Below, piece by piece: positions 41,808-63,589 of a DNA stretch of 64,000 nt. Numbering within the stretch: the first letter of the stretch is position 1; the number at the start of each line of letters is the position of its first letter. This stretch comes from Gillisella taibaishanensis (GTDB lineage: Bacteria > Pseudomonadota > Alphaproteobacteria > Rhizobiales > Rhizobiaceae), in NCBI RefSeq assembly GCF_001938985.1, contig NZ_MKIN01000021.1, positions 744,001 through 808,000 of the forward strand, in the 5' to 3' direction. A model generated the notes under the pieces. It made no database searches. It was not told where the DNA came from and was given only the letters and a program-made list of their open reading frames with translations. The translations under genes and the position numbers were made by a program.

Positions 41808-42827
41808 TCAGCTTTCCCTGCGAATGAGCGTTGTCGCAGACACCGTCAGTAGAATGAGGACACCTTGAACGCCGCTGACAAGCGTGCTGGACAAGTTGAG
41901 CAGTTGAAACCCATTGAGAAGGACGCCGACAAACAGCGCCGATAGCAGCGTGCCACCAATCGTAGGAACAAGCCGCCTAGAAAAGACCGATCCCAGGAGA
42001 GCCGTGACAACGACAGGCAGGAGCATTTCACCAGAGCCGGTGCTGGAACCGCTGAGATAGGCGGTGTTCAGGATGCCCGCGATGCCCCCGCAAAACCCGC
42101 TGATCAAAAACGAGGCTGAAACATATGCCTTGACCGGGATACCTGCCGCCCGCGCCGCTTCCGGAAACTCCCCCACGGCGTAGAGTCTAAGGCCAAAGCG
42201 CGTGTTCTGGATGATCAGCCCCATCACAAGCGAAAATCCGATCAGGACATAACCGAGCGACGGTATCCCGAACAGAGCGCCAGACGAAAGGTCAGTCAGT
42301 AGATCGCTGGAGGCTGGTATGACGGTATTTTCCGTCAGCACCAGTTCAAGCCCTGCGACGACATTCATGACCGCAAGTGTCGCGAGAAGTGGGACGATAC
42401 CGATCTGCGCCACGGCCAAAGCGTTGACGGCTCCGATGATCAGCCCTGTACCCAGTGCGGAGAGTGCTGCAAAGCCGTCGCCGTATCCCATCTGAAGGAG
42501 GCTCGCGTAGACGGCGGCGCTGAGGCCCATATTGGCCGCCAGCGAAAGATCGATACCACCGGTGACGACATTTGGACCTCCCGCGATGACCACAACCGTC
42601 AACCCGATCGCCAGCACCCCGGTCACTGCCGTCTGGCCAAGAATGTTGCCGATGTTGAAAATCGACAAAAAGAAGGGTGCCGATGTTGAAAAGATGACGA
42701 GAATAACGAGAAAGGTCAAAAGCGCCCCATAGCGCAAGGCTGCAACCGCAAGGCGCGTTCTCCCCTTAGCGCTAGGCTTGGGTCGCCTTCTTTTAACGAA
42801 CGCATAGTTTTGGGCATCAACCGACAT
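41808..42827 (-). CDS. Ribose-type ABC permease 1
   Basis: 339 residues, RbsC family. VVTGGIDLSLAANMGLSAAVYASLL is the signature. A polar amino-terminal part of about 30 residues is basic (KRRRPKPSAKGRTR). It overlaps the ATPase gene by 11 bases and is followed immediately by the second permease, so the transporter is a heterodimeric membrane unit. Confidence 0.9.
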   Translation of the reverse strand: MSVDAQNYAFVKRRRPKPSAKGRTRLAVAALRYGALLTFLVILVIFSTSAPFFLSIFNIGNILGQTAVTGVLAIGLTVVVIAGGPNVVTGGIDLSLAANMGLSAAVYASLLQMGYGDGFAALSALGTGLIIGAVNALAVAQIGIVPLLATLAVMNVVAGLELVLTENTVIPASSDLLTDLSSGALFGIPSLGYVLIGFSLVMGLIIQNTRFGLRLYAVGEFPEAARAAGIPVKAYVSASFLISGFCGGIAGILNTAYLSGSSTGSGEMLLPVVVTALLGSVFSRRLVPTIGGTLLSALFVGVLLNGFQLLNLSSTLVSGVQGVLILLTVSATTLIRRES

Positions 42828-44361
42828 GACGCGACCTTTCCGGGGCTCCGGTCGCCTCTGCTAGAATTTCTGTTGCTGTCGTATGGCTGGAAAGAAGTTC
42901 ACAGGTAATCCGCCCCCGGAACATCACCAGGACGCGATCAGCGAGCCCTACCAATTCGTCGAGATCGGACGAAAGAAGAATAATGCTGGCGCCTTGTGCT
43001 GCAAGGTCGGCAATCAGACTGTAGATTTCGGCCTTCGCACCGATATCGACCCCCACGGTCGGCTCATCCAGGAGATAAAGTTCGGTGTCGCGCCCGAGCC
43101 ATTTGGCGATCGCCACCTTTTGTTGATTACCGCCGGAGAGGGAACGCACCAGCGCTCTAGGGCCGGATGTCTTGATTTGCAGCTTGCGGATCAATTCCTG
43201 GGTTGCGTTTTCCTCGGCGCGTGGATCAAGCCGACCAAACCGGAGAAAGCGTCCGAGATTGGCAAGTGTTGTATTTTCCTGCACCGTCATCTCGAGAGCG
43301 ACTCCATGTCGGCGCCGGTCCTCCGGCACGAGGGCGATACGTGCTCTCGCCGCTTGTCTGGGCGTGTCGAAACGCAGTTTCCGTTCGCCGATGACAATTT
43401 CTCCCGACGTCGCAGCTTCAAGCCCGAAGAGGACCCGCATGAGATCCTTCGCTCCCGAGCCAAGCAGTCCTGTCAGACCCAGGATTTCGCCGCGCCGAAG
43501 CGTAAAGGACAACGGTTCGAATTTTCGATCGAGCGCGAGATCACGCACCCGAAGATAATCTGTGCCGATTGCGGAATGACGAGGCGGGAAGAGATCACCG
43601 GCTTCTCTGGCCACCATTAGCTGGCCAATTTCCGCAGCCGATGTGTCGGAAAGAGAAAGCGTCGCCACGTCACGGCCATTCCGCAAGACGGTCACAGCAT
43701 CGCATATCTCTTCGATTTCCCGCAGGTAATGAGAGATGTAGAGGATGGTAACCCCTTCTCCTGCGAGGCGGCGGATCAACCCGAACAGGATGTCCGCCTC
43801 TCGACGCACCAGCGCCGCTGTCGGTTCATCGAACACGAGGATCTTGGGCTTGCGAATGAGTGCACGCGTGATCTGGATTATCTGCTTTTCAGCGGTCGTA
43901 AGATCCGCGATCAGCGCGCCGTCCGGGAGTTCAAGATCAAAGTAACTCTTGAGCAACCGCGCCGCCTCACGCCGCATGCCGGAGCGATTGAGAAGCTGCA
44001 AGCCGCCATATACAGGCTCGTCGCCAAGAAACAGCGCCTCGCCAACGCTAAAGCTCGGTGGCAGCAACCGGTCCTGGTGAATGAAGTGGATGCCTAATGC
44101 CTCCGCGAGCTTGGGGGTCAGGCGGTCCTGCGGCGTGCCACAAATCTCAATGATGCCTTCGTCAGGCTGATAAAGCCCGGCGAGGATCTTGATCAACGTG
44201 GATTTACCTGCACCGTTTTGCCCGACAAGACCGTGCACCGATCCCCGCCCAACCTCCAGCGCCGCTCCGTCAAGCGCCCGGGCGCCGCCGAACGTCTTGA
44301 CGATCCCGGTCATGCGCAGAACGCTTGCACCGGTCGTCGGTTGCCCACAAAATTCGTTCAT
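42817..44361 (-). CDS. Ribose-type ABC ATPase with two nucleotide-binding domains
   Basis: 514 residues, RbsA/MglA/XylG type. Domain 1 has Walker A GQNGAGKST (47-55) and Walker B ILVFDEPTAAL; domain 2 has the degenerate Walker A GLLGSGAKDL and signature LSGGNQQKVAIAKWL with Walker B LYLLDEPTVGVD. The protein reads as intact. It is separated from the binding-protein gene by a 65-base gap with a hairpin. Confidence 0.92.
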   Translation of the reverse strand: MNEFCGQPTTGASVLRMTGIVKTFGGARALDGAALEVGRGSVHGLVGQNGAGKSTLIKILAGLYQPDEGIIEICGTPQDRLTPKLAEALGIHFIHQDRLLPPSFSVGEALFLGDEPVYGGLQLLNRSGMRREAARLLKSYFDLELPDGALIADLTTAEKQIIQITRALIRKPKILVFDEPTAALVRREADILFGLIRRLAGEGVTILYISHYLREIEEICDAVTVLRNGRDVATLSLSDTSAAEIGQLMVAREAGDLFPPRHSAIGTDYLRVRDLALDRKFEPLSFTLRRGEILGLTGLLGSGAKDLMRVLFGLEAATSGEIVIGERKLRFDTPRQAARARIALVPEDRRRHGVALEMTVQENTTLANLGRFLRFGRLDPRAEENATQELIRKLQIKTSGPRALVRSLSGGNQQKVAIAKWLGRDTELYLLDEPTVGVDIGAKAEIYSLIADLAAQGASIILLSSDLDELVGLADRVLVMFRGRITCELLSSHTTATEILAEATGAPERSRHVG

Positions 44362-44386
44362 CGCGATACTCCGGAACAGGACTGCC

Positions 44387-44408
44387 GGCTCCCACAGCGG
44401 TGGAGGCC
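44387..44408 (-). promoter_or_regulatory. RNA hairpin between binding-protein and ATPase genes
   Basis: GGCTCCCAC and GTGGAGGCC pair at 7 of 9 positions with a four-base loop, in the gap after the ribose-type binding-protein stop. Placed as the other SBP-trailing hairpins in this window. Confidence 0.45.
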
Positions 44409-44426
44409 GATCGAAGAGTAGAGACG

Positions 44427-45434
44427 TCAGCCAATGCCAAGTTTTTTGCTGACATCAGCCACGTTGGTCTTGTTGGCGAGCAGGGCTGGGACATAGGTCT
44501 CACGCGGCAATGTCTGACCCGCCAACAGCCGGGCGACGTTGCGGATGGCGGTCCGGCCAAGTTCGGCGGGCTGCTGGGCGACGTCTGCGGCAGCCGGTGA
44601 TTTCGGGTCGGCGACGAGCTGCAGGACTTCGGGGCTGCCATCTACGCCGTAGGTCTTGATCTCTGTACGGCCAGCGGCTGACAGCGCTTGCGTTGCGCCA
44701 AGCTGCGGAATATCCCATGCGGACCAGATCGCTTTGATCGATCCCTTTTCCGGATAGCGATTGAGGATGGCGGTGATCTGGGTGAACGCGTCCTGCACCG
44801 TGTTGGGGATGACGTCGCGCAGCTCAGGCTTGATAATCTCGACCTTCGGAAAATATTTCACGACATTGACAAGCTGATCGTAGCGGATCGCGCAGGGCGT
44901 AACGCCATAAAAGCCATTGAACACGACGATCTTGCCTTCGCCACCGATGTCCGACACCAGCTGCAGTGCGAGATCCTTGCCGATACCCCAATTATCCGAG
45001 GTGGAATTGTTCAGCGAATTGGTAGAACCGACATCGATGGTCAGGACCGGAATGCCCGCGTCACGTGCCTTTTTAAGCCATGGATCAATAACGGTCAGCG
45101 TTCCCAGCAACTGGACGATCGCGTCAGGCTTCTGGGCGATCAGCGTTTGCAGCTGCGACACGAGTTTACCGTCATTGCGGCCCGCATCGACCGCGATCGG
45201 TTCGCCGCCAAGACGTTTTACCTCCTCGATCTGGGCATTATAGGCATGCAGGTCGAAGAAGTGATCGGTGCCTGCTGCGCTGATGCCAATGCGTTTGCCT
45301 TTGAGCGAAAGTTCGCCGTCGGCAAGGCTGGGTCGAGCGCCGATCATGGCGGCCCCGGCGACGGACGCTCCTGCGAGTGCCGTGAATTTCAAGAGATCGC
45401 GCCGGCCAAGACCTGTGCTGCTGTCGTTCGTCAT
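44427..45434 (-). CDS. Ribose-type periplasmic binding protein
   Basis: 335 residues, Peripla_BP_4 fold. ACAGGAGGCACTT sits just before the ATG at 45434. A Tat signal peptide (GRRDLLKFTALAGASVAGAA) is unusual for this family and may mean folding or cofactor/ligand binding before export. KGKRIGISAAGTDHFFDLHAYN begins the first lobe. Ligand unknown; monooxygenase genes directly upstream suggest a sulfur- or nitrogen-containing compound. Confidence 0.88.
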   Translation of the reverse strand: MTNDSSTGLGRRDLLKFTALAGASVAGAAMIGARPSLADGELSLKGKRIGISAAGTDHFFDLHAYNAQIEEVKRLGGEPIAVDAGRNDGKLVSQLQTLIAQKPDAIVQLLGTLTVIDPWLKKARDAGIPVLTIDVGSTNSLNNSTSDNWGIGKDLALQLVSDIGGEGKIVVFNGFYGVTPCAIRYDQLVNVVKYFPKVEIIKPELRDVIPNTVQDAFTQITAILNRYPEKGSIKAIWSAWDIPQLGATQALSAAGRTEIKTYGVDGSPEVLQLVADPKSPAAADVAQQPAELGRTAIRNVARLLAGQTLPRETYVPALLANKTNVADVSKKLGIG

Positions 45435-45472
45435 AAGTGCCTCCTGTAGGAATTGGTCCGTCGAATGCCGCT

Positions 45473-46687
45473 TCAGAGAGCCCCATTCTTGGGCGGCAAA
45501 ACGCCGTTGAGCAGGTAGTTGCCCACAGCATGAAACTTCCACCGCACGGGATCATGCAGCGTGTGGGTGCGGGCGTTGCGCCAGTGCCGATCGAAATTGT
45601 GTTCGGCCCGCGCCGATTGCGTGCCCGCGAGTTCGAACAACGTGTTTGACGCCTCAAGCGCGGCCTCTGTTGTCAGTACCTTGGCGCTGGCGACAGCGAG
45701 GGTTGCCGCAAGCGTGTCGGACTCAGAGAGCGTTTCACGCGCCCGATCGACCTTGCGGCCTGCTTCGGCGATGAGTGCCGCGCCAGCATCAATCCGAACG
45801 GCAATCTGGCCGACCCGGTGGATCGTCAGTGGATCTTCGGAAGCCTTCTCGACGCCGGCATCCATCCACGGTCGCGAGCGGCTGGTGACGAAGGTGATCG
45901 TATCGCGAAGTGCCGCGCGGGCAATGCCGAGGTCGACGGCTGCCTGAATGATCTGTCCCACGGATCCGATGGTCTGCGGACGTTCGAAACTCCGGTGATG
46001 CCGGACGACCGCATCACCGGGCACGTGGACATTGTTGAGAACTGTGGTACCCGAGCCGGTTGTGCGTTGCCCGATGCCGTCCCAGTCATCAACGAGTTCG
46101 ATGCCCTGCGTACCCTTCGGCGTGAAGGACATGGTGAGCTTCTCGTTTTCGTCATTGGCAAAGATGACGATCCAATCGGCAAAAAGGACCCCGGTGGAAT
46201 AGAACTTTTTGCCATTGATGACGAAGCCCTCACCATCAGGACGGATCGTCGTATTGTAATGTCCGACGGTTTTTGTACCGATCTCGGAAAGCGCGTTGCC
46301 AAACTTGTCGCCCGCAAGAGCCCGGCCGAAATAGAAAGCCTTCTGCTCCTCCGATCCCTCAATGCGCAAGGCTTCGAGAATATAGAAGTGATTTTGCGGG
46401 ATCTGGCCGATTGATCCGTCAGCTTCCGCCAGAAGGGCTATCACCTCGCCGAGTACCGCGTTGGAAACATCGATCCCGCCATAGGCTTTGGGAACAGTAA
46501 TCGCCAACAGGCCGGAGCGCGCGAGTTCGTCCATCTCCTTGTACGGCAGAACGCGATCACGGTCGCGGATGGCAGCGCCTTCCGCAAAGCGCAACGACAG
46601 GGCGCGTGCGACATCAAGAGCTTCCGCTTCATTGTGGATGCGATGGGCGGCGCCATCGGTCTTAAACTGCAGCGCGTGGCTGGTCAT
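45473..46687 (-). CDS. SfnB-family acyl-CoA-dehydrogenase-fold flavoenzyme 1
   Basis: 404 residues. ACAD amino-terminal helices (YKEMDELARSGLLAITVPKAYGG), the middle strand domain with NALSEIGTKTVGHYNT and the C-terminal four-helix part ending DRHWRNARTHTLHDPVRWK match SfnB/DszC proteins of the group D flavin monooxygenases, which use FMNH2 from a partner. The catalytic Glu of true acyl-CoA dehydrogenases is not conserved in this group. AAGAGGGG precedes the ATG at 46687. It lies 38 bases upstream of the binding-protein gene. Confidence 0.85.
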   Translation of the reverse strand: MTSHALQFKTDGAAHRIHNEAEALDVARALSLRFAEGAAIRDRDRVLPYKEMDELARSGLLAITVPKAYGGIDVSNAVLGEVIALLAEADGSIGQIPQNHFYILEALRIEGSEEQKAFYFGRALAGDKFGNALSEIGTKTVGHYNTTIRPDGEGFVINGKKFYSTGVLFADWIVIFANDENEKLTMSFTPKGTQGIELVDDWDGIGQRTTGSGTTVLNNVHVPGDAVVRHHRSFERPQTIGSVGQIIQAAVDLGIARAALRDTITFVTSRSRPWMDAGVEKASEDPLTIHRVGQIAVRIDAGAALIAEAGRKVDRARETLSESDTLAATLAVASAKVLTTEAALEASNTLFELAGTQSARAEHNFDRHWRNARTHTLHDPVRWKFHAVGNYLLNGVLPPKNGAL

Positions 46688-51732: not shown

Positions 51733-51797
51733 TTAAGCTCAGCTTCACATCTCTTTAACTTTAGTAAATTTCCGCAATTTACTCCCTCGACTAAAGT
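51733..51797. promoter_or_regulatory. Shared promoter element with nested inverted repeats
   Basis: TTAAGCTCAGCTTCA (51733-51747; AAGCT-c-AGCTT dyad) is repeated with one change at 57433. Downstream, AGTAAATT-TCCGC-AATTTACT (51763-51783) is a perfect 8-bp inverted repeat enclosed by ACTTTAGT (51758-51765) and ACTAAAGT (51790-51797). The set lies just before a strong ribosome site at 51804-51812. Probable operator of the LysR regulator at 56427 (inference). Confidence 0.6.
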
Positions 51798-51818
51798 CAT
51801 TCTCGGGAGGAATTGGAA

Positions 51819-51908
51819 ATGATGCAAGAAGCTTATGGCCGCTTGCGGCCGATAACTGTGACAAGTCTATCTGCCGAAATGGCAAGGTGGGCCGCGAATG
51901 GCCGCTGA
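51819..51908 (+). CDS. Possible 29-residue leader peptide, ribose-type operon
   Basis: ATG at 51819 follows CGGGAGGAATTGG. The frame encodes 29 residues (MMQEAYGRLRPITVTSLSAE...) and its TGA overlaps the ATPase start (51898) by 11 bases, so translation of the ATPase may be coupled to it. The 71-base distance from the shared promoter element to this ATG resembles the 79 bases before the transketolase start, which supports it as the first translated frame. Alternatively the ATPase site (AAGGTGGG) acts alone. Confidence 0.45.
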   Translation: MMQEAYGRLRPITVTSLSAEMARWAANGR

Positions 51909-53361
51909 TAAGCTTCCGTTGATTTCGGTTCGTAACCTTCAAAAGAGCTTTGGCGTAACGAAGGTTCTGCGAGGTGTGAATTTCACCGTCAGCGCTGGCC
52001 AGATCCACGCCCTGCTCGGCGGCAATGGCGCCGGAAAGAGTACGATGATCCGTATCATCACCGGCGGCATCCGGAAGGATGACGGCGAGATCTCCCTTTC
52101 CTCACAGCGCGATACCGAGCCGAAAATTGCCGTAGTCCACCAGGAACTCGCGCTACTTGCCGATCTGTCGGTCGCCGAAAACATCGCAATCGTCCATGCC
52201 GCCTCGGCTAGGTCCTTCGTCCACGCCAGGAAGCAAGCGGAGATCGGCTATAAGGCGCTGTCATTGATTGATCCGCACCTTGCAAATACCGCCCTTCATC
52301 GCCGGGCAGCCGATCTTTCTATGCACGAGGGCCAAATCGTAGAAATAGCGCGGGCGCTGTCGACCGGTGCTGACGTAATTATGCTGGACGAACCGACAGC
52401 CAATCTCACGGCAGGGGAAACAGAACGCCTCTTTGCTGTGCTGCGCCGGTTGGTGACGGAGACAAATATCGGCATCGTCTTCGTTTCCCACCGTATGAAA
52501 GAAATCCGACAGCTTTGCGATGTCTGCACGATCATCCGCGACGGCATGACGGTGATTGATGCCGCCCCGCTCGAAAGCCTCACTGACGTCGAGATCGTGC
52601 ATCACATGGGGCAACCGGACGCGCGCAACGAGATACCTGCCCGACGCAAGATCGATCACGCAGATGTCGGTCTGGTCCTCAAGGGACCGGAATGCGCAGT
52701 CCCGGTTCTCAAAGGCCAAATCCTCGGCCTTGCCGGTGCTCCTGCAGGTCCCAGCCAAGTGATCGCCTTATTGAATGGCACCGCGCGTTCCAGCACCTGG
52801 GTTTTGGAAGCAGAGGGATGGCCAGAAAGGCCCATGTCGCCCCGCCAGGCGGTAGAACTCGGCATCGGCTATGTTTCAGGGGATCGTCGCAGTAAGGGTG
52901 TCCTTGCGCAATTGCCCATCATCGACAACGTGTTGGCGTCGCGCAGGGTTCGGGAGGGGCGGGTGTTCGTCCGGCGTTCGGAGCGCGCAGAGTGCCTTGA
53001 TCTCGTTCAAGCCCTGAAACTGAAGGCCGGCTCTATCCTTGATCTTCCCTCTACATTGTCCGGCGGCAATCAACAGAAGCTACTCATCGCCCGTTGGCTC
53101 GGCATGTCATTGCGGCTTGTCGTTTTTGAAGAGCCGACCCGTGGCGTCGATATTGGCACCAAACGCGACATCTACGAACTGATCCGCCGCATGGCCGATG
53201 CCGGGACCATCGTCATCTGGTGGTCGACGGAAAATGTAGAGCTTCTCGAACTGTGCGATGAAATCCTCGCTTTTGATACGGATGGGCAGGCGAAGGGCCT
53301 GCTGCAATCCAGCCAGTTCAATGAAGACGCTCTGGCAGACCTCACGGGAATGGCGGCATGA
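51898..53361 (+). CDS. Ribose-type ABC ATPase, two domains
   Basis: 487 residues. Walker A GGNGAGKST (41-49), Walker B VIMLDEPTANL; domain 2 has a strongly degenerate Walker A (GAPAGPSQ), LSGGNQQKLLIARWL and Walker B LVVFEEPTRGVD, in which Glu replaces the usual Asp. The D-loop/H-loop region of domain 2 reads WWSTENVELLELCD. A duplicated NBD with one weak catalytic site is normal for RbsA-like proteins. Overlaps the permease by four bases. Confidence 0.9.
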   Translation: MAADKLPLISVRNLQKSFGVTKVLRGVNFTVSAGQIHALLGGNGAGKSTMIRIITGGIRKDDGEISLSSQRDTEPKIAVVHQELALLADLSVAENIAIVHAASARSFVHARKQAEIGYKALSLIDPHLANTALHRRAADLSMHEGQIVEIARALSTGADVIMLDEPTANLTAGETERLFAVLRRLVTETNIGIVFVSHRMKEIRQLCDVCTIIRDGMTVIDAAPLESLTDVEIVHHMGQPDARNEIPARRKIDHADVGLVLKGPECAVPVLKGQILGLAGAPAGPSQVIALLNGTARSSTWVLEAEGWPERPMSPRQAVELGIGYVSGDRRSKGVLAQLPIIDNVLASRRVREGRVFVRRSERAECLDLVQALKLKAGSILDLPSTLSGGNQQKLLIARWLGMSLRLVVFEEPTRGVDIGTKRDIYELIRRMADAGTIVIWWSTENVELLELCDEILAFDTDGQAKGLLQSSQFNEDALADLTGMAA

Positions 53362-54350
53362 ATACGAAAGCACGATCCATGACTTCGAACGACAAGAACA
53401 GCCCTACGCCGCGTGCTCCCTCCGTCCTGTTGGCCTACCGCTCGGAACTGGCAATTGCCATGGCCTGTGTAGCGCTTCTGGTTGGTGTCGGCATTTTTGT
53501 ACCCGCCGCCCTTTCCTCAGGCAACTTTGCCAATATTCTGCAGGCGTCTGCGCCGTTGGTGATCATGTCGCTCGGCGTGCTCGTGGTGATTATAACCGGA
53601 GGGATCGATCTCTCGGTTGGATCGATCTTTTCTTTGACGGGCATGGTTACGGCGTTGGCCATGGCCAACGGCTTCGGCGATGTGACCGCGAGCCTTCTTG
53701 GTCTGGGAGTTGGCATCGTCTTCGGGTCGATCAATGGCGCGCTCATCACACTTGTCGGGCTTGCACCCTTCGTCGTCACGCTCATCACATACGCGGTGGC
53801 CGCTTCGCTCGCATTCATCGTCACCAATGGTCGCTCGCTGGGCGTTGATTCCTCTGATTATTGGCTGCTCAACAGTGGCGAACTTTTGCCAGGCATCCCC
53901 AATTTCGTGGTCTTCTGTCTCGTCTTAACAGTCGTGCTGGAATTCGTGTTGCGGAAAATTACGGCCGGGCGCTGGTTCTATTCGGTAGGTAGTTCGCCAA
54001 TGGCCGCCTACCTGCTGGGAATTCCGGTGAAACGCACACGCTTCGCCGCCTATGTGATCTCTGGGACCATGGCATCCTTTGCCGGTCTTCTGACGGTCAG
54101 CTACATCTTGAACGCAGAAGCGACCGCCGGCGCCTCGCTGATGCTGCAGGCAATTGCCGCTGTCGTGATCGGCGGGGCGAGCCTTGCAGGCGGCACTGGG
54201 TCTGCCGTGGGCGCCGTGCTCGGCGCGCTGATGATCACCATCATCCAGAATGGCGTCAATCTTATAGGCATCAACAGTTTCTGGCAGGGGTCCGTCACAG
54301 GTCTAGCAATTCTGGTGGCGGTTCTCATCGACAGATTTAGTCATCGATAA
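53358..54350 (+). CDS. Ribose-type ABC permease
   Basis: 330 residues, RbsC family with about ten helices. [20 protein letters not shown] is the signature. Only one permease is present here, so it probably acts as a homodimer, unlike the two-permease system at 40828-42827. Confidence 0.9.
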
Positions 54351-54370
54351 AAAGCTCAAGGAGGAGGAGC

Positions 54371-55333
54371 ATGATGAAAACACTGGTTAAGGCACTTGCC
54401 GTTGCGGCTGCCGTCTTGGTTGCGCAGAGCGCGGGTGCGGAGGAAAAGAAATTCACGGTTGCCTATATCGCACCGTCACTCGACATCGACTATTGGCAGT
54501 GGGTCGCTCATGGCGTTCAGCAGAAGGCCAAGGAACTCGGCATGAGCTATGTCGAATATACCTCGGAAAACTCGCCGGCCAAACAGATGGACAATGCGCG
54601 GGTCGCAGTAACCCGCGGCGTGAATGCGGTGGTCATTGGTCCCGTCAGTTCTACGTCTACGCCGCCTCTTCTCGCCTATCTGGCACAGCAGAAGATCCCG
54701 GTGGCCTTTGCCGGCATCGGTCCGCAGCAGGGGCAGACAAAATTTACGTCAGCGGTCACGGCCAACAATTATGAAACCGGCCTTGCCCAAGGCAAATATA
54801 CTTGTGAACTGGCAAAGGAGCGAGGCGGCAAGGAAGTCGGCATGCTATCGCTTCCACAGGATCGCGAGAACGCCCAGAAATATCTCAAAGGCGCGAAGGA
54901 AGCATTCCAGGCGAATGGCTGCGACCTCGTGCAGATGCTCGAAACGAAGGGTTTGACGATCAATGAAGCCGTCACCCAGGCCAACGATCTGCTGACAGCG
55001 CATCCGAACATAAAGGCGATCTACGGCATGTACGACCAGGCAGGCAGCGGCGCTGCCAAGGCATTGGCGACTCGTGGTCTCACAGGCAAAATCGGCATCA
55101 CGGTCGCTGACGGTAGCCCAGCCACGATCCAGCTCCTAAAGGACGGCGGTATTCAAGGCATCTTCTTCCAGGAAGCCGTCGGTCAGGGTATCGATGCGAC
55201 ACAGCAGGTTTATAACGCGCTGACCGGCACCCAAACGACCCAGAACATGGCGCTCATCATGCCGCTGGTAAAGGCCACAGACATTAATTCCGATGCAGCT
55301 AAGAAGGTGATTGCACGGGTTTTTCCGCAGTGA
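54371..55333 (+). CDS. Ribose-type periplasmic binding protein
   Basis: 320 residues, Peripla_BP_4 fold. AAGGAGGAGGAGC precedes the ATG. Sec signal peptide ([18 protein letters not shown], cut near AEE), then [24 protein letters not shown] and [28 protein letters not shown]. It lies 20 bases after the permease. The ligand is probably a sugar, polyol or sugar acid in view of the lactonase and transketolase genes downstream. Confidence 0.88.
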
Positions 55334-55339
55334 TCGAAT

Positions 55340-55368
55340 GGCCGGAAGCGGATCTACCGCCTCCGGCC
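55340..55368 (+). terminator. Strong hairpin after binding-protein gene
   Basis: GGCCGGAAGCGG and CCGCCTCCGGCC match at 11 of 12 positions around ATCTA, seven bases after the binding-protein stop, and are followed by TTATC. It may end or process the ABC operon transcript before the lactonase gene at 55412. Confidence 0.6.
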
Positions 55369-55411
55369 TTATCAGCACCATCGCCCTTTTACATCCGATC
55401 GGCTTCTATCG

Positions 55412-56305
55412 ATGAACGAAATTCCCCTGATCGATCCCCACCACCACCTGTGGGACATTACAAACAACTACTATCCTTGGCTCAATGACGGCCCGAAACC
55501 ATCGGCCTTCGGAGATTATTCCGAGATCATCTCAGACTATCTGATTGAAGACTTTCTCCAGGACGCGAAAAACCAGAACCTGGTAAAGTCCGTCCATCTT
55601 GACGTTGGATATGATCCCAAAGACCCCGTCGGTGAAACCCGCTGGCTGCAATCGATCGCCGACCGCTGCGGCTTTCCGCACGGCATCGTCGGCTATGCGG
55701 ATTTCAGCAAGCCGGATGTGGCCGACCTGCTGGACGGTCATCTCCAACACAGGAATTTCCGGGGAATCCGGCAGTCGATGAACTACCATCCCGATGCGGC
55801 AAAGACCTATCTGGATCGACCGGAAGTGAGCCGGACGCCGGAATGGCGAAGAGGGTTTAAAGAACTCGTCAAACGAAACCTCTCTTACGACTTGCAGCTT
55901 TACTACTGGCAGATGGAGGAATTCTACGATCTGGCAAGAGATTTTCCGAACACGCAGATTATCCTCAACCACACCGGCATGCAGGTGGACGGACCCGAGC
56001 ATTTCGATGGCTGGCGCAACAACATGCGTGTACTGGCGCAGGCAGAAAATGTCGCGTGTAAGATTTCCGGCCTGGGAATGGGCAACTTCACATGGACGAC
56101 CGAGACGATCCGTCCTTATGTGGAGACGACCATCGAGATCTTCGGCGTCGACCGCTGCATGTTCGCGTCAAACTTTCCAGTCGACAAGCTCTTCTCATCC
56201 TACGACGCCATCTTCGATGCCTTCAAGAGCATCACGGCTGCCTACCCCCACAGCGACAGGATGAAGCTCTTTCACGATAACGCCGAAAAATTCTACCGGC
56301 TGTGA
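55412..56305 (+). CDS. Amidohydrolase family protein, COG3618 lactonase-like
   Basis: 297 residues, TIM-barrel metal hydrolase. The H-x-H pair (His10 and His12 in IDPHHHLWD), a middle HTG (His in ILNHTGMQVDG) and ASNFPVD near the end carry the active-site residues of L-rhamnono/L-fuconolactonase and 2-pyrone-4,6-dicarboxylate lactonase. It opens a sugar lactone or a related ester. No clear ribosome site precedes the ATG; translation may be weak. It sits between the ABC importer and LysR/transketolase genes. Confidence 0.85.
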   Translation: MNEIPLIDPHHHLWDITNNYYPWLNDGPKPSAFGDYSEIISDYLIEDFLQDAKNQNLVKSVHLDVGYDPKDPVGETRWLQSIADRCGFPHGIVGYADFSKPDVADLLDGHLQHRNFRGIRQSMNYHPDAAKTYLDRPEVSRTPEWRRGFKELVKRNLSYDLQLYYWQMEEFYDLARDFPNTQIILNHTGMQVDGPEHFDGWRNNMRVLAQAENVACKISGLGMGNFTWTTETIRPYVETTIEIFGVDRCMFASNFPVDKLFSSYDAIFDAFKSITAAYPHSDRMKLFHDNAEKFYRL

Positions 56306-56426
56306 CCGCTCGATATCAGCCGGAGAATACATAAATAACCGTCAGGCGACGTCCCAAAAGCGCCGCCTCGACTTCCTGCCGCTCGAGCCATGGATCGCGC
56401 CGGAGCAATCGGCTACCATACACATC

Positions 56427-57413
56427 ATGCGCGATCTCAATCTCAAAGCTACAGAATATTTCGAGGCCGTTGCCCGGCTCGGCAGCGTCACCAAAGCCTC
56501 GGAGGAACTGGGCATATCGCCTTCCGCCGTCAGTCAACAATTGTCGCTGCTCGAAGCCCAGCTGGGCGTGAAACTATTCCGGCGTGAAAAGCGCCGGTTG
56601 GTGCTGACCCTTGATGGCGACCGATTGTTCCAGACGACGACGCAAGCCTTCAGCGCCATCCGCAACGCCCGTTCTGCCATTTCCTTCCAACGCGACCGAC
56701 GCAATTTCGTCATCCGCGTCAGCCCCAGCTTTGGCGTGCGATGGCTTGGCCCAAGAGTCGGAGCCTTTGCCGCTGAAAATGAAGATTGGAATATCCGCAT
56801 CGATGCCACGCCCGACTTTTCGGCATTCGATACGGAAAATGTGGACGTCGATCTTCGCTACGGCATGGGGACATGGAATGGCGTCGCTGTCGTGCCTCTT
56901 ATGCACGACCTTGTCCTTCCACTTTGCAGCCCGGCCTATCTCGAGCGGCTGCAGGCGATCGACCCGGATCCCACCCGCCAGCTCGTCAAGGCGAGGTTGA
57001 TCGATAGTGTGAAGACGCTTTATCGCTGGGATCTCTGGCTGGCATTCAACAAAATTCAGATTCCAAAAATCAACTATCCCTTGCGTTTCGACCGCTCGTC
57101 CATGTCGATCGAGATGGCCAAACAGGGTGGCGGCATTGCGCTCGATAGCGTCACATTGTGCCTGGGTGAATTGCAGCGCGGGGAGCTGGTTCCTTTCTCT
57201 GTCGACTTCGACGTAATCGATTTTCCAGCTTACTGGTTCGTCTGTCCGTCACGGCACCTCAACCGACGGATATTGCAGCGATTTTCGCAGTGGATGACCT
57301 CTGCCTGCAAGAGCCACGACGACATGGCGCGCGCGCATCTGCAGGCTCTGGGCTGCCGCTTCCGCCCCGGTTCTCCGACCGATTTAATCGATGTAAAGCC
57401 CTGGGGTCTCTGA
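56427..57413 (+). CDS. LysR-family regulator (GcvA/AmpR-like)
   Basis: 328 residues. HTH TKASEELGISPSAVSQQLSLLEAQLGVKLFRR, then FVIRVSPSFGVRWLGPRVGAFAAE, the GcvA-group hallmark. The C-terminus is about 25 residues longer than usual. It sits centrally between the ABC operon and the transketolase operon, which share a promoter element, so it likely controls both. Confidence 0.88.
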   Translation: MRDLNLKATEYFEAVARLGSVTKASEELGISPSAVSQQLSLLEAQLGVKLFRREKRRLVLTLDGDRLFQTTTQAFSAIRNARSAISFQRDRRNFVIRVSPSFGVRWLGPRVGAFAAENEDWNIRIDATPDFSAFDTENVDVDLRYGMGTWNGVAVVPLMHDLVLPLCSPAYLERLQAIDPDPTRQLVKARLIDSVKTLYRWDLWLAFNKIQIPKINYPLRFDRSSMSIEMAKQGGGIALDSVTLCLGELQRGELVPFSVDFDVIDFPAYWFVCPSRHLNRRILQRFSQWMTSACKSHDDMARAHLQALGCRFRPGSPTDLIDVKPWGL

Positions 57414-57432
57414 TCGATTGCAGCACCGTCAA

Positions 57433-57470
57433 TTAAGCTCTGCTTCAAAGGTATTTCACTTTTCTTAAAA
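57433..57470. promoter_or_regulatory. Second copy of the shared promoter element
   Basis: TTAAGCTCTGCTTCA matches the 51733 copy at 14 of 15 positions, and an ungapped 38-base comparison gives 27 identities. It lies 79 bases before the transketolase ATG and directly downstream of the LysR stop. Confidence 0.6.
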
Positions 57471-57525
57471 TCATTCTCCTCTCAGCAATGCTATCTGCAG
57501 CTGTATGAATTGCCGGGAGGAGAAT

Positions 57526-58380
57526 ATGAATTTGGCAAGCCGCTCCGTGGCGCGATCGAACGTATCGCTGGAACTGCGCGCATGGAATATCCGCCGCAAA
57601 GCTCTCTTGATGGGGCAGGTGCAAGGACAAGGTTATATCGGGCAGGCGCTCGGTATTGCGGACGTCCTAGCGGCGTCCTATTTCCACGCTCTTGAATATC
57701 GGCCGGAAGATCCTGAATGGGAAGGCCGCGACCGGTTTCTTCTGTCCATTGGCCATTATGCCATCGCGCTATACGCGGTCTTGATGGAATCCGGCATTCT
57801 GCCCGAGGATGAGCTCGAGACCTACGGCATGGACGACAGTCGTATGCCGATGTCCGGGATGGCTTCCTATACTCCGGGTATGGAAATCACCGGTGGTTCC
57901 CTCGGCCACGGCCTCGGCATTGCCGTCGGTATGGCCATGGGCCTGAAGCGCAAGAACAACAGGGCGCTGGTTTACAACCTGATGTCAGACGGCGAACTCG
58001 GTGAAGGCTCGACTTGGGAAGCCGCCATGTCCGGTGCGCACCACAAGCTCGACAACCTGATTTGCCTCATCGACTTCAACGATCAGCAGGCAGACGGAAA
58101 GTCCACCCAAATGCTGTGCTCCGAGCCACTAATCGAGAAGTGGGAGGCTTTCGGCTGGCACGCGCAGCGCGTCAACGGCAACGACCTCGCCGCCGTCGTT
58201 GCGGCCTTCGACAATGCGCGGGCTGTGAAAGACGCCAAGCCGCGCGTGATTATCTTCGACACCACCATGTGCAAGGGTGTGCCCTTCCTGGAGAGCCGTG
58301 AAATTACTCATTTCGTTCGTGTGGAAGCCGATGAATGGGACAAGGCACTTGCAGTTCTGGAAGAGGGGAAGCCAGCATGA
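57526..58380 (+). CDS. Transketolase, amino-terminal subunit
   Basis: 284 residues. The thiamine diphosphate motif spans SDGELGEGSTWEAAM to FNDQQADG (153-191), with Asp155 and Asn185 as metal ligands. GGSLGHGLGIAVGMAMG is the conserved helix before it. CGGGAGGAGAAT precedes the ATG at 57526. Split transketolases pair with the separate C-terminal subunit, which follows in a four-base overlap. They transfer two-carbon ketol units; specific types act in apulose-phosphate, sulfosugar and other ketose catabolism. Confidence 0.9.
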   Translation: MNLASRSVARSNVSLELRAWNIRRKALLMGQVQGQGYIGQALGIADVLAASYFHALEYRPEDPEWEGRDRFLLSIGHYAIALYAVLMESGILPEDELETYGMDDSRMPMSGMASYTPGMEITGGSLGHGLGIAVGMAMGLKRKNNRALVYNLMSDGELGEGSTWEAAMSGAHHKLDNLICLIDFNDQQADGKSTQMLCSEPLIEKWEAFGWHAQRVNGNDLAAVVAAFDNARAVKDAKPRVIIFDTTMCKGVPFLESREITHFVRVEADEWDKALAVLEEGKPA

Positions 58381-59411
58381 CATTCGCATCGATGGCGCGC
58401 AAATACGAGGCACGCAAGGTTCCTGAAGGCGAACGACAGGCTACATCAGCGATGATTGCATCGCTCGCAGCCGAAGGCTATGACACAGTTGCCGCTCCGT
58501 TCGGCAACGCCCTGGTGGAGGCCGCTCAGAAAGATGAGCGAATTGTGGGGCTCACCGCAGATTTGGGCAAATATACCGATCTTCACGTCTTTGCTCAGGC
58601 AATGCCGGATCGCTTCTACCAAATGGGCATGGCTGAACAAGTCCTTATGTCGGCCGCCGCAGGTCTTGCCCGAGAAGGATTTCTGCCCTTCGCCACCACC
58701 TATGCAGTCTTCGCCTCCCGCCGCGCCTATGATTTCATCGCCATGGCGATTGCGGAGGAAAATCTGCCGGTAAAGATCGTATGCGCCCTCCCCGGTCTGA
58801 CCACTGGCTATGGGCCAAGTCACCAGGCGACGGAAGATTTGGCGATTTTTCGTGGACTGCCCAACATGACGATCATCGATCCATGTGATGCGGACGATAT
58901 TCTCGGCATGGTGCCCGCTATGTGCGCGCATGACGGACCCGTCTATGCTCGCCTCCTGCGTGGTAAGGTGCCATCGGTTCTCAAGAAGCATAAGCCCGAC
59001 TACAAGTTTCAGCTTGGCAAGGCACAAGTGATCCGGGACGGCAGGGACGTGCTAGTCATTTCCACCGGTCTGATGACCATGCGCGCCCTCGATGCCGCAG
59101 TCAAACTGGCAGAAGATAACATTGATGTCGCGGTTCTCCATTGCCCGACGATCAAGCCGCTCGATCTGGCAACGATTGCCGCCGAAGCCGCAAAAGGTGG
59201 TCGTCTGGTCGTTACTGCCGAAAATCATACCGTGGTGGGCGGCCTGGGCGAGGCAGTCGCCGCCGGCCTGCTGTCGCGCGGCATCGCACCTCGCTTCCGC
59301 ATGATCGGCCTGCCGGATCAGTTCCTGGAAGCGGGCGCCTTGCCGACATTGCACGAGATGTATGGCATCTCGGTTGGCAAGGTCATCGATCAGATCAAAG
59401 GTTGGCTCTGA
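58377..59411 (+). CDS. Transketolase, carboxy-terminal subunit
   Basis: 344 residues. The pyrimidine-binding domain (ALVEAAQKDERIVGLTADLGKYTDL, FYQMGMAEQVLMSAAAGLAREGFLPFATTYAVFASRRAYDF) contains the Glu in GMAEQ that activates ThDP, and the C-terminal regulatory domain ends LPTLHEMYGISVGKV. It forms an alpha2beta2 enzyme with the preceding subunit. No sugar kinase is adjacent, so the phosphorylated substrate would be made elsewhere. Confidence 0.9.
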   Translation: MTFASMARKYEARKVPEGERQATSAMIASLAAEGYDTVAAPFGNALVEAAQKDERIVGLTADLGKYTDLHVFAQAMPDRFYQMGMAEQVLMSAAAGLAREGFLPFATTYAVFASRRAYDFIAMAIAEENLPVKIVCALPGLTTGYGPSHQATEDLAIFRGLPNMTIIDPCDADDILGMVPAMCAHDGPVYARLLRGKVPSVLKKHKPDYKFQLGKAQVIRDGRDVLVISTGLMTMRALDAAVKLAEDNIDVAVLHCPTIKPLDLATIAAEAAKGGRLVVTAENHTVVGGLGEAVAAGLLSRGIAPRFRMIGLPDQFLEAGALPTLHEMYGISVGKVIDQIKGWL

Positions 59412-59454
59412 AAGCCGCCGAATTCATTCACAGTTATCGGGAGGAGAAAGGCTC

Positions 59455-60207
59455 ATGAGCCTGCTGAAGGGTAAATTTGCAATCGTAACCGGCGCAGCGT
59501 CTGCACGTGGCCTTGGAAAGGCGACCGCAAAGCTGTTTGCCGACCACGGCGCGACAGTCGCCATACTCGATCTTGACGCAGACGCAGCCAAGGCAGCGGC
59601 CGCCGACCTCGGCGCCGAGCATGTCGGTCTTGCTTGCAACGTTACGGATAAGGCGGCATGCGACGCCGCGGTCGCGGATCTCAACAAGCGCTGGGGTCGG
59701 ATCGACATTCTCGTCAACAATGCCGGCATCACCCAGCCGCTAAAAATTATGGAAATCGGACCAGGTAACTATGACGCGGTTCTCGATGTGAACCTGCGGG
59801 GTACGCTTTACATGAGCCAGGCTGTCATTCCCGGCATGCGCGAGCAGAAGTCCGGTTCGATCGTCAACCTCAGTTCCGTCTCAGCCCAACGCGGCGGCGG
59901 CATTTTCGGGGGGCCTCACTATTCCGCCGCCAAGGCTGGCGTTCTCGGACTGACCAAAGCCATGGCCCGTGAACTCGCTCCGTCGAACATCCGTGTCAAC
60001 GCGATCTGCCCTGGCTTCATTGCAACTGACATTACAGCCGGAAAACTGACGCCGGATATGTTGGGGACAATCATCGAAAGCATCCCAATGGGCCGTGCTG
60101 GAGAAGCCTCGGATGTCGCGGGCTGCGCTTTGTTTCTGGCCTCAGACCTCTCAAGCTACTGCACCGGCACGGAAGTGGATGTCAACGGTGGGTCGCTGAT
60201 CCACTGA
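59455..60207 (+). CDS. SDR oxidoreductase, classical FabG-like
   Basis: 250 residues. TGAASARGLG (12-21), NNAG (88-91), Ser141/143, Tyr156 and Lys160 (HYSAAK) form the active site, and Asp39 after strand 2 (ILDLD) favours NAD over NADP. CGGGAGGAGAAAGG lies before the ATG at 59455, 43 bases after the transketolase. Probable polyol or sugar-alcohol dehydrogenase in the same pathway. Confidence 0.88.
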   Translation: MSLLKGKFAIVTGAASARGLGKATAKLFADHGATVAILDLDADAAKAAAADLGAEHVGLACNVTDKAACDAAVADLNKRWGRIDILVNNAGITQPLKIMEIGPGNYDAVLDVNLRGTLYMSQAVIPGMREQKSGSIVNLSSVSAQRGGGIFGGPHYSAAKAGVLGLTKAMARELAPSNIRVNAICPGFIATDITAGKLTPDMLGTIIESIPMGRAGEASDVAGCALFLASDLSSYCTGTEVDVNGGSLIH

Positions 60208-60240: not shown

Positions 60241-60424
60241 ATCGACATTGCGAGCATGACGTGGTTGTGCAAGGCGACCGTACATCCACGATATAATCAC
60301 ACAACCGATCTGCAACGACAGACGTTCGACGGCGGGAGCGAGGCCGTCGGACAACGCCTATCGTCGGCATGGAGAGAGCTGCCGAGCAGGGCGAAATAAC
60401 CTTTTGAAATGGGAGAGGAACATA

Positions 60425-61447
60425 ATGGCCACTACATTTGCTATAAGCCGCAGAACCATGGTTAAGGGCGCACTGGCGCTGCCTTTCATAACGGTGCTCA
60501 GGCGCCCGGCTTCGGCAGCCGAATTCACGCTGAAATACGCTACGGGGCAGGATCCGACACATCCGGTCAACATTCGTGCCAAGGAAGCCTTCGACCGCAT
60601 TCGTGACGCGACATCGGGGCGGGTGGAGATCAGACTTTATCCTGCCAACCAGCTCGGTTCCGACACCGACCTTCTGTCGCAGGTGCGTAACGGCGCCATC
60701 GATTTTTTCAATCTCTCCTCTCTGGTTCTGGCCACTTTCGTGCCACTGTCGGGAATTACCAGCCTCGGCTTCGCCTTCAAGAATTACGATCAGGTCTGGC
60801 AGGCAATGGATGGCGAGCTCGGAGCGCACATTCGGGAGATGATCGCCAAAACCCCGATTTTCGCTATGTCGAAAATCTGGGATAACGGCTTTCGCCAGAT
60901 TACTTCTTCCACCAAGGAGATCAAAACGCCGCAGGATCTGAAAGGATTCAAACTCCGCGTTCCGCCGGCTCCCGCGCTGACATCGCTGTTCAAGGCGCTG
61001 GAGGCAGCCCCTTCCCCGATCAATTTCAATGAGCTTTATTCCGCCTTGCAAACCAAGGTCGTCGAAGGCCAGGAGAATCCCCTCGCGATCATCGCAACGG
61101 CCCGCCTCTACGAAGTGCAAAAAAGCATCAGCCTGACCAACCACGTCTGGGACGGATATTGGGTCCTCGGCAACAAGGCTTCCTTCGCACGACTTCCGAA
61201 GGAATTGCAGGATGTCATTTCGCACGAACTCGACCAGTCGGCGCTTGATCAGCGCTCCGACATTGCTCGCCTCAGCGAAAGTTTGAAGACCGACCTGAAG
61301 GGCAAGGGCATTAACCTCATCGACGTTGATCAGGATGCATTCCGGACCGTTCTGGCATCCACCAGTTTCTATAATGACTGGAAACAGAAATACGGCGAGG
61401 ATGCTTGGAAGAGCCTGGAAAAGGTATCTGGTCCGCTCGGTAAATAA
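60425..61447 (+). CDS. TRAP transporter substrate-binding protein, DctP family
   Basis: 340 residues. A Tat-type signal (ISRRTMVKGALALPFITVL) leads into EFTLKYATGQDPTHPVNIRAKEAFDRI. FKLRVPPAPALTSLFKALEA carries the conserved carboxylate-binding Arg. GAGAGGAACATA precedes the ATG. The ligand is usually a carboxylate such as a C4 acid, keto acid or sugar acid. It feeds DctQM downstream. Confidence 0.9.
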   Translation: MATTFAISRRTMVKGALALPFITVLRRPASAAEFTLKYATGQDPTHPVNIRAKEAFDRIRDATSGRVEIRLYPANQLGSDTDLLSQVRNGAIDFFNLSSLVLATFVPLSGITSLGFAFKNYDQVWQAMDGELGAHIREMIAKTPIFAMSKIWDNGFRQITSSTKEIKTPQDLKGFKLRVPPAPALTSLFKALEAAPSPINFNELYSALQTKVVEGQENPLAIIATARLYEVQKSISLTNHVWDGYWVLGNKASFARLPKELQDVISHELDQSALDQRSDIARLSESLKTDLKGKGINLIDVDQDAFRTVLASTSFYNDWKQKYGEDAWKSLEKVSGPLGK

Positions 61448-61708: not shown

Positions 61709-63589
61709 ATGACAGCCCAACAATACCAGGAACTCGACGGCCACGACCGTCCACCAACCGGAATCGCTCTTTGGGCTGCCAATGCCGAAAGGCTCCTCGG
61801 CCTGATTGTCGAAATGCCCGCCGCCCTTCTTCTCCTTGCAGAAGTGGTTGTGCTGATGATGGGAGTGATTTGGCGCTACGCGTTGCACCAGCCGCTGATC
61901 TGGTCCGACGAACTGGCTGGCATCCTGTTTCTCTGGCTGGCGATGTTCGGCGCCGTCGTGGCCTTGCGTCGCGGTGAGCATATGCGCATGACCGCTGTCG
62001 TTGGCGCGCTGAAGCCACAGTGGCGCTCGCTGCTCGACCTTGTTGCCATAGCGGCAGCCCTCGCCTTTCTGCTGCTGACCATTGCACCCGCGTATCATTT
62101 TGCGGCAGAAGAAGTCTGGGTCACCACCCCGGCTCTCGAAATTCCCAATGCCTGGAGGGCCGCCGCACTCCCTGTCGGCATCTTTTTCATGCTGCTGATT
62201 GCGACGCTGCGCCTGTTGCAGAAAGGCGGTTTGCGGCAGATCGTCTTGGCGCTGCTCAGCGTTTCACTTGTGGTCGCGGCCGTTACTCTGCTCGGACCGG
62301 GTTTGAGCGGCATCGGCAACTGGAACCTGCTGCTGTTCTTTGTCTTCGGCGTCGGAGTCATGGTTTTTCTCGGCGTTCCGATTGCCTTCTCGTTCGGGCT
62401 CGCGACGTTCGGCTATATCGCTTCGACGACAACGACGCCGACCATGGTCGTCATCGGTCGCATGGACGAAGGCATGAGCCATATCATCTTGCTTGCTGTT
62501 CCTCTGTTCGTGCTCCTTGGCCTGCTCATTGAAATGACCGGCATGGCGCGTGCGATGGTGAGCTTTTTGGCGAACCTACTAGGCCATGTCAGGGGCGGTC
62601 TTTCCTATGTTTTGATCGGTGCCATGTATCTCGTATCCGGTATTTCCGGGTCCAAGGCCGCAGATATGGCCGCTGTTGCGCCGGCATTGTTTCCAGAAAT
62701 GCAAAAGCGGGGTGCAAAGCCCGGAGATCTGGTCGCGCTGCTCTCGGCCACCGGCGCCCAAACGGAAACTATTCCGCCTTCCATCGTGTTGATCACGATC
62801 GGTTCCGTCACAGGCGTCTCGATCGCGGCGCTCTTCACCGGTGGCTTGCTGCCTGCCGTGATCCTAGGGCTGACGCTGGCCGCGGTGGTCTGGTGGCGCT
62901 ATCGCGATGAAGACCTGTCGAGTATCCGTAGGGCAAGTTGGAAGGAGATCGTATCCAGCTTCATTATCGCGCTTCCAGCGATCGCATTGCCATTCTTGAT
63001 CCGGGCTGCCGTGATCGAAGGCGTTGCAACGGCAACAGAAGTGTCGACGATCGGGATCGCCTATACCGTCGTCGCAGGCCTGTTAATCTATCGCCGGTTC
63101 GAGTGGACGCGGCTCTATCCGATGCTTGTCGATGCGGCGGCTCTGTCCGGTGCCATTCTGCTCATCATTGGCGCTGCGACCTCCATGGCCTGGGCATTGA
63201 CGCAATCAGGCTTTTCCACCGAACTCGCGGAGATCATGCGGGGGCTGCCTGGCGGCGCCATAACCTTTATGGCAGTATCCGTTCTTGCCTTCATCATTCT
63301 GGGCTCTGTCCTGGAAGGTATCCCGGCAATCGTTCTGTTCGGGCCGCTACTCTTCCCAATCGCACGTGATGTCGGCTTGCATGAAGTCCATTATTCGATC
63401 GTGGTCATTCTGGCGATGGGCATGGGTCTCTTTGCTCCACCCTTCGGTGTCGGCTACTACGCCGCCTGCGCCATTAGCCGGATAAAGCCGGACGAGGGCA
63501 TGAAGCCGATTATCGGCTATATGATCGCCCTGCTCGTTGGTCTTATCGTCGTTGCCGCTATTCCGTGGATCTCCACAGGGTTCCTTTGA
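61709..63589 (+). CDS. TRAP transporter DctQ-DctM fused membrane subunit
   Basis: 626 residues. Residues 1-200 form the four-helix DctQ part (VIWRYALHQPLIWSDELAGILFLWLAMFGAVVALRRGEH) and the rest the DctM part with GVPIAFSFGLATFGYI, VSGISGSKAADMAAVAPALFPEM and PPSIVLITIGSVTGVSIAALF, the sodium/substrate motifs. Fusion of Q and M is a known TRAP variant. GGGAGGAGAAGG precedes the ATG at 61709. It uses the binding protein at 60425 for Na+-coupled uptake. Confidence 0.93.
   Translation: MTAQQYQELDGHDRPPTGIALWAANAERLLGLIVEMPAALLLLAEVVVLMMGVIWRYALHQPLIWSDELAGILFLWLAMFGAVVALRRGEHMRMTAVVGALKPQWRSLLDLVAIAAALAFLLLTIAPAYHFAAEEVWVTTPALEIPNAWRAAALPVGIFFMLLIATLRLLQKGGLRQIVLALLSVSLVVAAVTLLGPGLSGIGNWNLLLFFVFGVGVMVFLGVPIAFSFGLATFGYIASTTTTPTMVVIGRMDEGMSHIILLAVPLFVLLGLLIEMTGMARAMVSFLANLLGHVRGGLSYVLIGAMYLVSGISGSKAADMAAVAPALFPEMQKRGAKPGDLVALLSATGAQTETIPPSIVLITIGSVTGVSIAALFTGGLLPAVILGLTLAAVVWWRYRDEDLSSIRRASWKEIVSSFIIALPAIALPFLIRAAVIEGVATATEVSTIGIAYTVVAGLLIYRRFEWTRLYPMLVDAAALSGAILLIIGAATSMAWALTQSGFSTELAEIMRGLPGGAITFMAVSVLAFIILGSVLEGIPAIVLFGPLLFPIARDVGLHEVHYSIVVILAMGMGLFAPPFGVGYYAACAISRIKPDEGMKPIIGYMIALLVGLIVVAAIPWISTGFL

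Follow-up and report, generated by a model that had tools for sequence, protein, structure and literature searches.

The region analysed here (the window) is a stretch of 64,000 nucleotides from Gillisella taibaishanensis, and its right-hand part carries two transport and putative catabolic gene sets on the same strand, with a gene for a LysR-type regulator between them. The genes and sites, including those predicted from the comparisons described below, are as follows.

51733–51747 (centre 51740), plus strand: putative LysR recognition site of the ABC operon, dyad TTAAGCTCAGCTTCA recognised by inspection, motif score 18.9
51753–51769 (centre 51761), plus strand: probable activation site, a weaker repeat of the dyad, placed by the peak at an offset of 21 bp among 55 orthologous TktN promoters
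51790–51795, plus strand: candidate -10 element ACTAAA, placed at the distance (50 bp) from the centre of the dyad that the conserved GCTATC has in the TktN promoter
51819–51908, plus strand: leader ORF of 29 codons that has a strong ribosome site and overlaps the start of the ABC ATPase gene
51898–53361, plus strand: ATPase of a sugar-type ABC importer (PF00005), AraG/RbsA-like, under every equivalog cut-off
53358–54350, plus strand: ABC permease (PF02653)
54371–55333, plus strand: periplasmic sugar-type binding protein (PF13407)
55412–56305, plus strand: amidohydrolase-2 family protein (PF04909), lactonase-like, with a weak FuconLaconase match
56427–57413, plus strand: LysR-type regulator, GcvA-like (PF00126 and PF03466), proposed from its co-occurrence with the dyad to bind both dyads
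57433–57447 (centre 57440), plus strand: putative LysR recognition site of the transketolase operon, dyad TTAAGCTCTGCTTCA, score 16.8, conserved in orthologs
57453–57469 (centre 57461), plus strand: probable activation site ATTTCACTTTTCTTAAA, at the second motif peak (+21)
57490–57495, plus strand: candidate -10 element GCTATC
57526–58380, plus strand: transketolase N-terminal subunit, TktN (PF00456)
58377–59411, plus strand: transketolase C-terminal subunit, TktC (PF02779 and PF02780)
59452–60207, plus strand: SDR dehydrogenase (PF13561)
60404–61447, plus strand: TRAP solute-binding protein, DctP (PF03480)
61709–63589, plus strand: fused small and large TRAP permease, DctQM (PF04290 and PF06808)

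The LysR protein has the N-terminal HTH_1 domain (PF00126, 4.8e-21) and the C-terminal substrate domain (PF03466, 1.8e-18), and its closest relative of solved structure is GcvA (8y6u). It scores 224.7 bits against the NCBIfam model of GcvA, below the cut-off of 288; going by sequence, the regulator would be GcvA-like in its working, yet it is not GcvA by the strict cut-off. Its gene starts 121 bp past the amidohydrolase gene on the same strand, and a consensus scan gave no terminator-like site between the two, where such scans, like those for sigma-70 promoters, stayed at the level of shuffled sequence and are uninformative. On this arrangement LysR may belong to the operon that it would activate, which may mean positive feedback. 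In addition, leader ORFs of 25–29 codons with a strong ribosome site overlap the start of the ABC ATPase gene in four Rhizobium loci, namely the window and L049, L050 and L056 (25–28 codons in the latter three). The peptide sequence is hardly conserved, which suggests that the leader couples translation to the ATPase gene. Another sugar-type ABC ATPase and substrate-binding protein are encoded at 42817–45542 on the minus strand, and no TTAAG-type dyad near them was found among the top motif matches of the window.

A preliminary description, made from the window by eye, had noted a common 38-base element ahead of the two operons. Direct comparison of 51733–51770 with 57433–57470 gave exactly the match that it had counted, 27 of 38 positions and 14 of 15 in the core, while pairs of shuffled leader regions reached at best 24/38 and 13/15 in 150 shuffles. 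The LysR gene does lie between the two operon heads, as it had also said. As for the distance of 70–80 bases from the element to a start, position 57526 is indeed the start of TktN, but 51819 is that of the leader ORF; the ATPase gene has its own start at 51898, in a different frame and 158 bp from the centre of the dyad. Moreover, the repeat is present but is not a single element: its core is a 15-bp dyad, TTAAG-N5-CTTcA by inspection, and a weaker, half-conserved copy is centred 21 bp downstream. It had further called for a search of the genome for more copies, and in the 5.42-Mb genome the 15-base core TTAAGCTCWGCTTCA has exact matches only at the two sites in the window. The degenerate dyad, searched for by pattern and not by position weight matrix (PWM), is not enriched in the genome (17 matches vs 15 in the control), and on this basis we propose no other target operon. 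The remaining near matches lie mostly within ORFs or upstream of motility genes. The latter, at a flagellin gene and three genes that look by sequence like chemoreceptor genes (L133, L135, L145 and L147, each centred near 1509), are probably the box of another regulator; the flagellin gene of a congener lacking the LysR (L190) has a TTAAG-N5-CTTAA-like dyad as well.

The comparison was extended to about 100 related bacteria. One scan with the LysR protein yielded 79 loci, which range from Rhizobium to Rhodobacterales and further; in most of them LysR is found near TktN-TktC-SDR, usually together with a TRAP transporter, and often at the distal end of the operon and convergent to it. A palindromic EM search without a seed on 58 non-redundant 220-bp regions upstream of TktN returned the motif gT(T/G)(A/T)AG-N5-CT(A/T)(A/C)Ac, the same dyad as the core in the window, mostly 85–130 bp before TktN. 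A score of at least 8 was reached by 57/58 of these regions vs 2.6% of shuffles, and a score of at least 11 by 95% vs 0.7%; since the same regions trained the PWM, their high scores alone are not independent. Outside the training set, all nine heads of orthologous ABC operons scored at least 10, and the ABC site of the window, on which the PWM was not trained either, is the top motif match of the window. No strong site was present at the expected place in L102 and L107. At position 14 of the dyad both window sites have C, where the family has A or C; position 2 is T or G in the family, and T-N11-A fits part of the sites. In Mesorhizobium (L120–L122), the genes for the ABC importer, the amidohydrolase, the SDR and the transketolase are arranged in a single run that diverges from LysR, and the dyad stands at the operon head (19.0–19.7), while TktN inside the operon is without it (-4.3). 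Furthermore, on the Aminobacter plasmid pAA03 (L159) all gene types of both window operons stand in one run behind a single dyad with a score of 18.7. From these sequence comparisons, the dyad tracks the operon head and not TktN itself.

When 55 TktN promoters were aligned on the dyad, the second-highest mean PWM score was found at +21 bp, and a -10-like TGCTAtc was recovered 50 bp from the dyad centre, with TGCTA conserved 57–61 bases after the start of the site. The second copy can be seen directly at +21 in S. meliloti and Shinella, with scores of 8.9 and 10.0, respectively. On the ABC side, CTTTAACTTtAGTAA of the probable activation site is conserved in L049, L050 and L056; the ABC region of L052 aligned poorly and was left out of this alignment. 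The weaker copy at +21 suggests that the 38-base element is composed of a recognition site and an activation site. This would be the usual layout of a LysR-type promoter, with the dyad in the zone from -50 to -75 of the transcription start, predicted near 51801 and 57501 for the two operons, and the weaker site some two helical turns further on, near -35.

In order to separate the regulator from its target, further loci were fetched by similarity to TktN without reference to LysR. The dyad was at an operon head in 8/8 plasmid loci with a LysR ortholog (56–72% identity), and the TTAAG-type dyad was found in 0/19 loci without one, though their TktN is up to 80% identical. The exact p value is 4.5e-7, but it ignores phylogeny and is only a guide, since the loci are not phylogenetically independent. 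The absence of the LysR ortholog was checked within the fetched 14–19 kb for plasmid-derived loci and genome-wide for genome-derived ones; L159 and L180, which have the dyad at another operon head, were counted as positive after the fact, and L161 was left out as a duplicate of the training locus L076. In sister operons with a diverged LysR, an EM search on ten intergenic regions between LysR and the operon head gave GTGAA-N5-TTCAC, strong in 8/10, which suggests that the operator follows the regulator. Thus the neighbouring LysR very probably binds the dyad. The same site heads the member operons and is lost without the regulator, as predicted for a single regulon, and the common LysR-linked regulon of the preliminary description is well supported by the conservation of the dyad ahead of the same operons in Alphaproteobacteria, by its link to the LysR ortholog and by the one dyad where the operons are fused.

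It could be argued that some other regulator binds the dyad, for example one of a motility type with TTAAG/CTTAA half-sites, and that the LysR gene is between the operons by coincidence; the dyads at the flagellin and chemoreceptor-like genes, and the presence of such dyads in congeners without a LysR ortholog, are in its favour. However, the operon dyad is missing ahead of transketolase operons without the ortholog, it changes in sequence along with the sister LysR, and the pattern occurs in the genome at control level, which leaves this explanation highly improbable. That the two copies are alike by chance or by recent duplication, with no regulatory meaning, might be considered for just two copies 5.7 kb apart in one genome, but we give it practically no weight, because shuffled sequences never attained their similarity, and the dyad is kept at a nearly fixed position in dozens of genomes where the flanks are not.

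We therefore favour with considerable confidence, on comparative grounds, the reading that the element at 51733 and 57433 is the operator of the LysR protein, whose inducer-bound tetramer would co-induce both operons. One LysR dimer would occupy the recognition site at about -61, which is the strong 15-bp dyad, and a second would occupy the activation site at about -40, the weak copy that lies 21 bp, or two helical turns, downstream and beside the -35 region, so that the tetramer could recruit RNA polymerase at both promoters. The inducer would probably be the compound that is imported or the first product made from it. On the ABC side the importer, the amidohydrolase and, by read-through, probably LysR itself would be induced; on the other side it would be the split transketolase, the SDR and, by read-through, the TRAP transporter, which probably belongs to the regulon as judged from the conserved gene order. 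A LysR that acts at both sites mainly as a repressor is unlikely, although somewhat less so than the explanations above: the sign of regulation does not follow from the comparison, and GcvA of Escherichia coli both represses and activates (PMC5002191), but the dyad precedes the core promoter, some 50 bp ahead of the -10 element, and the weaker copy is next to -35, which is the usual geometry of an activator. A similar activator layout is known for gcvB, where the gcvA-gcvB region has two 15-bp ATTAG-n5-CTAAT inverted repeats centred at -65 and -43 (PMC5002191).

The proposed operators resemble those of GcvA in having a 15-bp inverted repeat with an N5 centre, here T(T/G)(A/T)AG-N5-CT(A/T)(A/C)A, and in the pairing of two such repeats at a distance of about two helical turns, here with 21 bp between centres, and the LysR is nearest to the GcvA subfamily. 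The differences are that it falls under the 288-bit cut-off, that the predicted targets are catabolic and transport genes and not gcvTHP/gcvB, that the outermost bases read TT or TG and not AT, and that the gene for LysR often lies downstream or in convergent orientation and not divergently. The sister split-transketolase operons on plasmids of Pantoea, Rhizobium, Agrobacterium and Azoarcus encode a LysR of 31–37% identity that is usually divergent; they have the same SDR-TktN-TktC content, mostly with TRAP, and most have a 15-bp dyad at their head, but the dyad is GTGAA-N5-TTCAC (LysR-SDR-transketolase-TRAP operons L153–L155, L174 and L176–L179) and the TTAAG-type motif is absent.

A possible parallel, offered only as a lead, is D-apulose-4-phosphate transketolase (AptAB), likewise a split enzyme, whose genes share an operon for the breakdown of a plant sugar with those for an importer. 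Genes for dihydroxyacetone kinase and a TIM-barrel protein adjoin the transketolase genes in some relatives, whereas no dedicated sugar kinase or isomerase was seen in the window operons. Genes for dihydroxyacetone kinase and/or TIM-barrel isomerase-like proteins were seen beside the split transketolase in L158, L160, L171, L173, L174 and L180. These neighbours suggest, only as a lead, a pathway of C2 transfer that leaves a triose. A literature search, outside of which most subscription papers lay, gave nothing on point for the operon, for regulons of LysR with transketolase or for apulose transketolases.

The circuit is of a well-known kind, a GcvA-like LysR regulon, clear but fairly ordinary, and this regulon appears to be undescribed in the literature searched. 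It is rather likely that it represents an undescribed and widespread catabolic regulon of Alphaproteobacteria, in which two sister LysR clades would act on closely similar transketolase operons by way of different dyads (TTAAG/CTWMA vs GTGAA/TTCAC). A repeat seen by eye becomes in this way a proposed regulator, operator and target set open to direct testing, and an orphan importer is tied to an orphan split-transketolase pathway, so that the ligand of the importer should equal the substrate of the pathway. If this is true, the two LysR clades with their different dyads would be a natural experiment on the switching of LysR operator specificity, and the sister clade would make this specificity testable through the exchange of domains or residues.
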